DNA from: Deltaproteobacteria bacterium
GTDB lineage: Bacteria; Desulfobacterota; Syntrophobacteria; Syntrophobacterales; Syntrophobacteraceae
NCBI GenBank assembly: GCA_021777755.1
Contig: JAJYDE010000046.1
Location: 1 to 32,831, forward strand
DNA: 32,831 nt
Reading direction: 5' to 3'
The notes below the pieces were generated by a model that did not search any database, was not told the DNA's origin, and was given only the letters and a program-made list of their open reading frames with translations. The position numbers and the translations under genes were made by a program. Of this stretch, positions 26,573-32,704 are shown in pieces (the first letter of the stretch is position 1; every line of letters starts with the position of its first letter).

Positions 26573-26584
26573 TGCTGCAAGCAA

Positions 26585-26673
26585 TAGCCGTTAGGGGTGT
26601 CCGGCGAGCGCCGGGCTGAGAAAAGACCCTCAAAATACCTGATCTGGGTCATACCAGCGTAGGGAAATGGCTT
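26585..26673 (+). ncRNA. TPP riboswitch (THI element)
   Basis: The conserved segments appear in order: AGGGGTG, GGGCTGAGA, ACCCT, ACCTGATCTGGGTCATACC and AGCGTAGGGAAA, closed by AGCC/GGCT. These form the pyrimidine- and pyrophosphate-sensing arms for thiamine pyrophosphate. A terminator follows at 26699, so excess TPP should stop transcription before thiG. Confidence 0.95.
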
Positions 26674-26698
26674 GGGAAAAAACTCCGTAGATTTCCAC

Positions 26699-28889: not shown

Positions 28890-29581
28890 TGCGGAGCGGG
28901 GGAATTGCGGACAATCTTGCCCTGGTCCGTGAGCGGATCGCGGCCGCGTGCGGCCGGGTCGGACGAGAGCCGGTCGAGGTGAAGCTCGTGGGTGTTACCA
29001 AGACGGTCCCGGTTGAAAGAATCCGGGAGGCTATGGAGGCCGGCCTCGAGATCATCGGTGAAAATTATGTCCAGGAAGCCCGAAGCAAGCTTCAAGCTTT
29101 GGCCGGGCTGCCGGTGGTGCGGCATTTCATCGGTCATCTGCAAACAAACAAGGCAAAGAGCGCACTTGAGTGCAGCGACTGGATCGAAACGGTCGACAGC
29201 AGGAGTCTGGCAACGGAGTTGAACCGCAGAGCGGCACCCGGCGCAAAACTCCCGGTGCTCCTCCAGGTAAATATCGGGGGGGAAGAGACAAAAAGCGGAA
29301 TCCAAGAGAGCGAGCTGCCCTCTTTTCTCGCGTTTTGCCGCGGCTTGGACCGGCTCGACGTGCGGGGGCTCATGGCGATTCCGCCCTTTTTCGATCAGCC
29401 GGAGCGGGTTCGGCCCCACTTCAGGCGAATGCGCGAACTAATTGAAAATCTTCGGAAAGACGCGGGCGAACCTCGAAGTCTGAGCGAACTCTCGATGGGC
29501 ATGAGCGGCGATTTCGAAACGGCCATCGAGGAGGGGGCCACGATTGTGCGGGTGGGTACGGCGATTTTCGGTAAAAGATGA
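28889..29581 (+). CDS. yggS: PLP homeostasis protein, YggS/PROSC family
   Basis: The 230-residue PLP-binding barrel has the Schiff-base Lys in [11 protein letters not shown], then [21 protein letters not shown] and a C-terminal [28 protein letters not shown]. The family controls free pyridoxal phosphate rather than catalysing a known reaction. Its first base is the last base of the thiS stop (TAATG), tying it to the TPP-controlled operon. Confidence 0.95.
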
Positions 29582-29686: not shown

Positions 29687-29944
29687 TCAGCCGTAGAGGC
29701 GCACCGGCGTGCTCAGGGATTCGAAACTGTCGCTGCCGGCGTCATAGCCAACGGTCATAAACATAATCTGCTGCATCCCCCTGGTGATAAGGCTCATCCA
29801 GCCATAGGCGGCCTCCTCCTCGGAGCCTGCCACAAAGACGTCTGCCACGCCGAAAAAGCGTGCGGTGCCGGCCAATTCCCCCGAGGTCTTGAGGGGAACA
29901 TCTTCCCTGCCTTGTGAGACATACAGGATCATACCCTTTTTCAT
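29687..29944 (-). CDS. Small protein of unknown function under a cobalamin riboswitch
   Basis: The protein has 85 residues from the ATG at 29944, which has GGAGG 6 bases upstream; another Met four codons earlier is less likely. I recognise no named family. The pattern suggests a small alpha/beta fold: strand (MILYVSQG), helix ([12 protein letters not shown]), strand (ADVFVAG), helix ([16 protein letters not shown]), strand ([11 protein letters not shown]). There is no signal peptide, membrane segment or cysteine. It is the only gene downstream of the cobalamin riboswitch and its terminator; the next gene is convergent. A role in cobalamin or cobalt metabolism is an inference from that control only. 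Confidence 0.75.
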
Positions 29945-29969
29945 ACAGCCCTCCATGGTTGTTGTGAGG

Positions 29970-29993
29970 GTCCGAAAACGTGTGTTTTCGGAC
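29970..29993. repeat. Perfect 10-bp inverted repeat in the leader
   Basis: GTCCGAAAAC and GTTTTCGGAC with a 4-base loop stand 26 bases upstream of the small gene's ATG and after the terminator. It could be a protein-binding site or a transcript-stabilising hairpin; it is followed by no T run. Confidence 0.55.
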
Positions 29994-30033
29994 AGTTGAA
30001 AAACCTCGCGGGCGACCCGTGGGAGCTTCGGCC

Positions 30034-30070
30034 AAAAAAAAATCCCTAGAGCAAAACAGCCCTAAGGATT
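30034..30070 (-). terminator. Expression-platform terminator of the cobalamin riboswitch
   Basis: On the minus strand AATCC-T-TAG pairs with CTA-G-GGATT (9 pairs including one T-G) around a 12-base loop, ending in a run of T. It lies about 60 bases past the aptamer and before the small gene. Confidence 0.8.
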
Positions 30071-30130
30071 GCACCCTGATTTACTTGATCCCTGGCCGGC
30101 GCACCCCGTATTTCCACGTACGGGTCCACC

Positions 30131-30297
30131 ATGCGGCCACAGGCAGGTCTTCTGACTCACGGATCACCCTACTTTCCGAACCTTCCCACTTCGCATCGCG
30201 AAATAGTGGTGTTTTCGGATTTCGTCCCCGTATACAGCGGCGGGACCGTTCCCGATTTAAACGGGATTCCCTATTAAGCTTTCGCGCCTGGCCGCAA
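30131..30297 (-). ncRNA. Cobalamin (B12) riboswitch
   Basis: The minus strand shows a GCGGCCAGGC/GCCTGTGGCCGC closing stem, the GGGAATCCCG segment, the B12-box-like GGTCCCGCCGCTGTATACGGGG, and the hallmark 3' part GTGAGTCAGAAGACCTGCC. The box reads GCCGCTG rather than the usual GCCACTG, a tolerated change in my judgement. A terminator follows, so cobalamin should lower expression of the 85-residue gene. No cobalamin synthesis or transport gene is in the window. Confidence 0.9.
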
Positions 30298-30319
30298 CAT
30301 ATTAAGTTGTCGAGTTGGA

Positions 30320-30349
30320 AGGTTAGCAGGCTCGGGTGGGGCGAGTCAA
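30320..30349 (-). promoter_or_regulatory. Possible promoter of the riboswitch transcript
   Basis: The minus strand has TTGACT (30344-30349), an 18-base spacer and TAACCT (30320-30325). The -35 is good and the -10 is weak. RNA would start about 15 bases before the aptamer. Confidence 0.45.
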
Positions 30350-30635: not shown

Positions 30636-30875
30636 ATGCAAGTTCTTTTGAAACGTTGGGGAAACAGCCTTGGTCTTCGCATTCCGAAGGGAATTGTTGA
30701 GTCGGTCGGACTGAAAGCCGACGATGCCGTTGATATTGACGCTTCTAAAGACGGTTTCAAAGTGAAGAAGGCCCGAAAGAGGTATGTTCTGAAGGAGCTT
30801 CTAAGCCGAGTCACGCCTGAAAACAGGCATGATTCCATCGATTGGGGTGGCCCTGAAGGAAACGAGCTTCTATGA
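30636..30875 (+). CDS. mazE: Antitoxin MazE
   Basis: The 79-residue protein opens with the AbrB/MazE swapped-hairpin domain (VLLKRWGNSLGLRIPKGIVE) and ends in an acidic, probably disordered tail that binds the toxin. ACGGAGG precedes the ATG at 30636; a longer frame back to 30531 has no good ribosome site and would cover the promoter. It overlaps mazF by 4 bases, fixing the antitoxin-first order. Confidence 0.92.
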   Translation: MQVLLKRWGNSLGLRIPKGIVESVGLKADDAVDIDASKDGFKVKKARKRYVLKELLSRVTPENRHDSIDWGGPEGNELL

Positions 30876-31207
30876 AGAAAGTCCCGGAGAAAGGTGATTA
30901 CGTTCATATTGATTTCGATCCGCAAGGAGGCCACGAACAAGCCGGTTCACGCTTCGGCCTCGTCCTCACCCCTGTTGATTTCAATAGGATTACAGGGTTT
31001 GCGTGGGTTGCTCCGATCACAACCAAGGTTAAGGGATACCCCTTCGAAGTTCTGATTCCTCCGGGAGAACGATGCAACGGGGCCGTGTTGGTGGACCAGA
31101 CCAAAAGCCTTGACTGGAAAGCCCCAAGCCTTGATGTGGAGGGGAAGGCATCGGATTTGGTGGTCGAAGATGCTTGTGCGCTTGTCGCGGCGATTCTGGA
31201 GGGGTAG
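30872..31207 (+). CDS. mazF: mRNA interferase MazF
   Basis: The 111-residue endoribonuclease toxin matches E. coli MazF along its length: GDYVHIDFDP, GGHEQAGSRFGLVL, KGYPFEV, and the core VLVDQTKSLDW. The Arg of the QAGSR segment and the Thr of the VAPITTK strand fit the active-site region. By family knowledge it cuts single-stranded RNA at short sequences; the specificity cannot be told. It is intact, so the module should be functional. Confidence 0.93.
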   Translation: MKKVPEKGDYVHIDFDPQGGHEQAGSRFGLVLTPVDFNRITGFAWVAPITTKVKGYPFEVLIPPGERCNGAVLVDQTKSLDWKAPSLDVEGKASDLVVEDACALVAAILEG

Positions 31208-31777: not shown

Positions 31778-32704
31778 TTAATACGATGGCTTCGGATGGA
31801 ACAGCCCTTTAACTACTTTTATTAAAAGATAAAGAAATAGAATCGGCAGAACAATTGATTGTATAGTTATTACGATTATAAGGCTAATGATATAATCAAC
31901 TGTTCTAAATGCTATATCTTTAAAAGTTTCAATTTTACCTTTAATATTATTGAATGCACGTGTAATAGATGCAATTATGCCACTATGTTTTTCTTTCTGA
32001 TCTGAATTGTCGCTACTGCCAGCAATGCCAGCTTTTATATCCTGAACCATACAAAATGCATGTTGATACTCACTAGTCAAAAATTTATCAGATACAATTT
32101 TAACAGTGCATAAAGTAAGTGGAAAACCAATTTTGATGATAAACGAAAATATTAGAATATCGATCCCAAAGCGCATGAAATCAACGGTCCCAATACGGGG
32201 TAAAAGCATTCCCATGAAAATCAATATTAATGATACACCTAAGAATATCTTAAATCCTAGCCAATCACCAAGTTCTATAAATATTTTCTGTATACCCAAC
32301 GATACAGAACTAATTAGCATTACGGTTGATGCTTCCTCAATTAAATCTTCATATGGTTGAAATGCCTCTCCTCCAGCTAAAGATTCACCACCAGAAGCAC
32401 CTATCCCACCAGGCTCAGCATTTACGTTTACATTTGTTCTACTATCTTTGATTGTTGAAATTGCGGAATTCAAACCCCTTAGAATAGTAAATATTTCAAG
32501 CGTGCGTTTTGTTGTTTCATTAATATATCTATTAGCACCTTTTACAATATTTGAAGTAATTGGAATTTTATTGAACACAGTATCAAAAAAAGATGTAAAT
32601 GATAGGAATGAAAGCAATAATAAAATGAATCCAAGTAGTAACCGTTTGAAAATGAGTTTTATTCTATTAGCTTTGCCACCTTTTTTTGATTCATCGGAAC
32701 TCAT
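31778..32704 (-). CDS. Multi-pass membrane protein of unknown function, AT-rich
   Basis: The protein has 308 residues with a basic start and about five hydrophobic segments: near 22-40, 126-143, 152-168, 179-201 and 272-298. Between the first two lies a soluble part with a helix and a Gly/Ser-rich linker (GGIGASGGESLAGGEA). A second soluble loop runs from about 205 to 265. I recognise no family. TAGGAGG precedes the ATG. Base use is far from its neighbours: the line 31861-31920 has 15 G+C of 60, against 46 of 60 in the yggS line 28921-28980. This points to recent transfer, consistent with the transposase end 16 bases upstream. Confidence 0.7.
   Translation of the reverse strand: MSSDESKKGGKANRIKLIFKRLLLGFILLLLSFLSFTSFFDTVFNKIPITSNIVKGANRYINETTKRTLEIFTILRGLNSAISTIKDSRTNVNVNAEPGGIGASGGESLAGGEAFQPYEDLIEEASTVMLISSVSLGIQKIFIELGDWLGFKIFLGVSLILIFMGMLLPRIGTVDFMRFGIDILIFSFIIKIGFPLTLCTVKIVSDKFLTSEYQHAFCMVQDIKAGIAGSSDNSDQKEKHSGIIASITRAFNNIKGKIETFKDIAFRTVDYIISLIIVITIQSIVLPILFLYLLIKVVKGLFHPKPSY

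Follow-up and report, generated by a model that had tools for sequence, protein, structure and literature searches.

What does a cobalamin riboswitch control when the only gene behind it encodes a protein of 85 amino acids that can be placed in no described family? The question is raised by a locus in a deltaproteobacterium of the Syntrophobacteraceae. The window, by which we mean the whole stretch of 32,831 nucleotides that was analysed, is the entire contig C39 of a genome of 4.2 Mb in 103 contigs. The B12 regulon is among the best mapped of the riboswitch regulons. The elements of the locus are as follows, read from the promoter to the gene:

30320-30349 (minus strand): candidate promoter, with -35 box TTGACT at 30349-30344, an 18-nt spacer, TG, and -10 box TAACCT at 30325-30320
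30125-30304 (minus strand): full-length cobalamin (B12) riboswitch aptamer, RF00174 (101.6 bits, E 1.4e-24)
30034-30070 (minus strand): intrinsic terminator forming the expression platform of the riboswitch, made up of a 12-pair hairpin (30070-30041) and the T-tract after it
29970-29993 (minus strand): perfect 10-bp hairpin with an ACAC loop, between the terminator and the ribosome-binding site (-14.3 kcal/mol, z -3.7)
29950-29954 (minus strand): Shine-Dalgarno GGAGG, 5 nt ahead of the ATG, read from the sequence
29687-29944 (minus strand): open reading frame of the 85-amino acid gene, with an ATG start, encoding a member of an undescribed protein family

The aptamer (30304-30125) matches the RF00174 covariance model over positions 1-189, with a score three times the gathering score of 31.5 bits, which rules out a chance aptamer. 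It is followed by an expression platform able to stop expression, the 12 pairs of the terminator hairpin (30070-30041) preceding a run of T (-17.6 kcal/mol, z -3.4). The well-formed minus-strand aptamer and the intrinsic terminator proposed in the initial annotation are therefore both confirmed. The probable promoter that it also proposed fares less well. The TTGACT-18-TAACCT sequence with its TG before the -10 box (30349-30320) was found by eye and by script, and an automatic generic scan using a stricter threshold lists no promoter on the minus strand. A script comparison shows a TTGACA-like -35 box at roughly this position, shortly before the aptamer, in most relatives. We regard the candidate promoter as plausible, and as the softest element of the locus; the start of the transcript is expected just ahead of the aptamer.

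A hairpin and T-tract lie between the aptamer and the gene in all 46 of the directly linked homologous leaders that were examined, compared with 36 of 600 random stretches of 200 nt (6%). Taken with the recurrent TTGACA-like -35 boxes, this indicates a conserved transcription-attenuation device. From the class of the riboswitch and the placement of its terminator, cobalamin would be expected to turn the gene off. The perfect 10-bp hairpin is apparently absent from the relatives whose leaders were inspected. In its full-length covariance match and its terminator-type platform the element resembles other members of RF00174, but it differs in that the gene under its control is no known gene of B12 synthesis, B12 transport or a B12-related isozyme.

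The 85-amino acid gene is the sole gene after the riboswitch on the minus strand, as the initial annotation had it. The gene for YggS (TIGR00044, 28889-29581) is convergent with it, ending at 29581 on the other strand. On the far side, a MazE-like antitoxin and PemK/MazF-like toxin pair (30636-31207, plus strand) adjoins the riboswitch promoter and is oriented away from it. Elsewhere in the window there is a TPP riboswitch (26583-26682, plus strand, 67.1 bits) ahead of a cluster of thiG-like, thiH (TIGR02351) and thiS-like genes, and a predicted membrane protein of 308 amino acids (31778-32704, minus strand) with no significant family match.

The protein itself has no match in Pfam, in NCBIfam or among solved structures. 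Comparison of the window gene with its six nearest homologues gives dN/dS of approximately 0.13-0.25 (dN 0.18-0.28, dS 0.86-1.71), so that the frame is truly coding and under purifying selection. Most homologues have a ribosome-binding site comparable to GGAGG. In an alignment of 51 members the consensus is MKxGxIxYV...WWxLxTRGM...RLCG. G4 and G56 are invariant, and I6, Y8, W49, R82, L83 and G85 are conserved in more than 90%. Cysteine occupies positions 62 and 84 in slightly more than half of the members (57% at position 84). Beyond W49 and R82, which are near-invariant, conservation extends to few side chains that look functional, so that no metal site is obvious and no conserved metal-binding cluster is apparent. 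The AlphaFold2 model is a compact beta-alpha-beta-alpha-beta-beta-beta arrangement (pLDDT 85.8, pTM 0.77), and the protein is predicted to be a small soluble alpha/beta fold. Searches with two AlphaFold2 models found no significant structural relative (best Foldseek E 0.03, best VIA Z 4.8); the top rows of the fold searches are PelC, tRNA synthetase anticodon-binding domains and lobes of sugar-binding proteins, all common alpha/beta arrangements. Neither a signal peptide nor a membrane segment is evident in the sequence, which begins with the conserved MKxGxIxYV, and the protein is probably cytoplasmic.

Several possible relationships were considered. There is a weak similarity to rhodanese/3-mercaptopyruvate sulfurtransferase at the helix AWWxLxxxG (best E 0.0037 in NCBIfam), with matches of the rhodanese type for eight of the 51 members at E 0.1 or better and an E value of 0.11 for PDB 1urh. 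The catalytic cysteine loop (CxxGxR type) is absent from the alignment, however, and hhalign gives a probability of 0.8%. A homologue of CbiK or CbiX, or a diverged fragment of CbiK, is excluded by an hhalign probability of 1.2% and the lack of a Pfam match, and a B12-independent isozyme (NrdDG, MetE or similar) by the lack of any enzyme domain match. Single members give weak matches to CysG and to uroporphyrinogen methyltransferase (E 0.007 and 0.09).

We gathered 68 homologues by protein similarity alone, excluding a distant sister group, and scanned their leaders with Rfam; because of the way they were collected, the leaders provide an independent test. RF00174 is found upstream on the same strand in 64 of the 68, so that orthologues in many genomes are under the same control. 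In 52 of them the association is direct, with 99-405 nt (median 195) between the end of the aptamer and the start codon. In a further 12 the riboswitch is more distant, separated from the family gene by cbiK, by other genes or by a gap of 780-990 nt. One contig ends too early, and three members have no close upstream RF00174 (L045, L115 and L116); L045 lies beside btuF, and the other two beside TonB-receptor genes. Even at a density set generously at 10 riboswitches per 3,000 genes, 52 of 68 would arise by chance with a probability below 1e-110 if the members are independent; close relatives are not, though many genera and families are represented. The least credible explanation of all is that the riboswitch stands beside this gene by chance or as a relic: one could cite for it solely that the gene stands alone in the window genome, and the same element lies upstream of nearly every homologue across many genera.

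Homologues were found in 15 of 26 genomes of the same family and 23 of 39 of the same order. Among 395 genomes drawn evenly from the phylum, 35 contain a homologue, rising to 50 with a broader profile; about 42 of these 50 matches are strong (E below 1e-10), representing 14 families, or 19 families when the weak matches are counted. The profile searches covered this one phylum, and many of its genomes are draft assemblies. No copy was found on plasmids using one distant member as query, nor in phage records using the window protein. The distant sister group (L110, L111, L113 and L114) comprises proteins of approximately 109 amino acids with LLKFCxPEELGL near the end, whose genes lie near argC- and mutS-like genes and have no cobalamin riboswitch; we take this group as a clue to a wider superfamily.

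The family is linked to cob, cbi and btu genes. Gene calls in these neighbourhoods were made mechanically. In 35 loci scanned, the first downstream gene is CbiK (PF06180) in 18 and a TonB receptor in five; genes lying upstream, or second in line, include further CbiK as well as CbiZ, FecCD, Peripla_BP_2 and a tetrapyrrole methylase. Local searches within 6 kb of 62 loci found cbiK at 34, a TonB receptor at 13, BtuF at 11 and FecCD at nine, the cbiK genes being mostly within about 100 nt of the family gene. The order is variable. In a separate lineage (L079, L081, L085, L086 and L122) cbiK precedes the family gene. In L093 and L096 the riboswitch is followed by a family gene, cbiK and a second, different family gene, which suggests duplication and specialisation inside the operon. 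Genome G018 has two copies; judging by names assigned from translations, one lies close to a TonB receptor and to genes resembling CbiM/Q/O, and the other is beside a BtuB-like receptor with a riboswitch of its own and a BtuF-like protein. The initial annotation had emphasized a stand-alone gene. This describes the window correctly, but most relatives sit with cbiK or with receptor or transport genes. The check it suggested, whether homologues follow cobalamin riboswitches or lie near corrinoid genes, came out positive on both counts, with cbiK, TonB-receptor and B12-transport genes as the usual neighbours. Both links support its proposal that the gene has an undescribed role in the handling of cobalt or corrinoids, though the biochemical function itself remains inferred.

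The association with CbiK is also seen at the level of genomes. CbiK scores above the cut-off in 36 of the 42 genomes that have a strong family member, compared with 146 of the 353 others (Fisher p=2e-8, a test that treats genomes as independent and ignores their kinship). Note that the family is absent from 146 of the 182 CbiK genomes of the phylum. It is therefore not needed for CbiK, and would be accessory rather than essential. The CbiK of Desulfovibrio vulgaris is periplasmic, and many of the CbiK proteins neighbouring the family begin with a stretch resembling a signal peptide, whereas the 85-amino acid protein does not. A direct complex is consequently uncertain, since the CbiK involved would have to be cytoplasmic, or the partner a different protein. 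CbiK-P is cited in PMC11124144.

The window gene and cbiK are separated but share one type of switch. The only CbiK of the window genome is at C29:79636, where a cobalamin riboswitch of its own ends 239 nt before it. The other three cobalamin riboswitches in the genome precede, respectively, cbiL, this cbiK together with a BtuF-like protein, and lastly a ThiC/BzaB-like gene. They therefore control corrinoid genes. The last of these genes (L103:281-1588, minus strand, C20 of the genome) encodes a ThiC-family protein that scores 575 bits as ThiC and 511 bits as BzaB-like; it is possibly a synthase of the lower ligand (benzimidazole) of B12 instead of the ThiC of thiamin synthesis, and a CbiX-like frame adjoins it. 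In the passages of Rodionov 2004 (PMC545781) on cobalamin and cobalt, B12 elements in delta-proteobacteria are placed before cbiK-cbiL and btuCDF, and cbtX is a candidate cobalt transporter; the small gene is not mentioned there. Relatives of the window gene sit in cbiK operons like those of that account, but the window gene itself differs in lying apart from a cbiK that has its own riboswitch. The sections of a 2013 survey of riboswitch regulons that concern cobalamin (PMC3766115) class the regulated genes as those of synthesis, transport, cobalt transport and isozymes. Literature searches, largely outside of subscription papers, found no description of the 85-amino acid gene. Thus while the riboswitch class is known, the protein family appears to be undescribed in the libraries and literature searched.

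That the protein belongs to the B12/cobalt regulon can be accepted with high confidence. As to what it does there, our best explanation is of an OFF-switched, B12-repressed cytoplasmic protein that is accessory to cobalt insertion or to the uptake of corrinoid, and taken as a whole we consider this to be probable. In the absence of adenosylcobalamin the leader would be read through and the protein made, while in its presence the terminator at 30070-30034 would form and transcription stop. When B12 is short the protein would thus be switched on along with CbiK and the genes for cobalt and corrinoid uptake. As an accessory it might help the insertion of cobalt into the corrin precursor, or alternatively deal, on the cytoplasmic side, with cobalt or tetrapyrrole that has been imported. 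The narrower statement that it assists CbiK or cobalt handling specifically is put forward tentatively.

The main rival places the protein on the TonB/ABC uptake route. It would then be a cytoplasmic adaptor or regulator of import by BtuB-, BtuF- and FecCD-like components, acting in the uptake or salvage of corrinoid, with CbiK merely co-regulated. Loci where cbiK is not adjacent often have a TonB receptor or BtuF (L071, L072, L075, L083, L084, L087, L116, L128 and L129), as do the neighbourhoods in several genomes that have the family and lack CbiK. Yet by far the commonest near neighbour is CbiK, at 34 of the 62 loci and often within 100 nt, and the co-occurrence of the two in genomes is strong. 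We consider this explanation to be rather unlikely. Less probable again is a protective role under B12 shortage, whether against free cobalt or unfinished tetrapyrroles or through metabolic adjustment, with no direct part in insertion or uptake. The gene does stand alone in several genomes (the window, L088, L089 and L100), and parts of PMC545781 and PMC3766115 record B12-sparing genes that are also under cobalamin riboswitches; against this, it is cbiK and transport genes that recur beside the family, and no isozyme or stress gene does so. The frame is often the first between the riboswitch and cbiK, and might for that reason be taken for a leader peptide, or for another upstream frame of a regulatory kind, serving to tune the next gene without making a working protein. 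This is effectively ruled out by the purifying selection on the frame, its good ribosome-binding sites, the confidently predicted fold and the gene order, because the gene is also found downstream of cbiK (L081, L085, L086 and L122) and on its own in the window.

Returning to the B12-repressed accessory protein, a more specific form would have the family serve the early-insertion (CbiK) route as a dedicated chaperone or carrier, whose cargo would be cobalt, sirohydrochlorin or an imported corrinoid. We regard this as doubtful. The abstract of PMC10206600 reports that the early-insertion route works without a metallochaperone, CobW belonging to the late-insertion route, and so a carrier role would be notable. 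CobW, a G3E GTPase and cobalt metallochaperone, resembles the 85-amino acid protein by analogy only, as a possible accessory for cobalt delivery. It has a P-loop GTPase domain, whereas the small protein shows no match to such a domain, nor any other match in Pfam or NCBIfam. If the carrier reading were true, the family would constitute a B12-repressed handling protein of an undescribed kind.

We note finally that a family with neither name nor recognised domain is found faithfully behind cobalamin riboswitches in at least 14, and up to 19, families of the phylum. Such fidelity points to an unrecognised step in the handling of cobalt or corrinoid.
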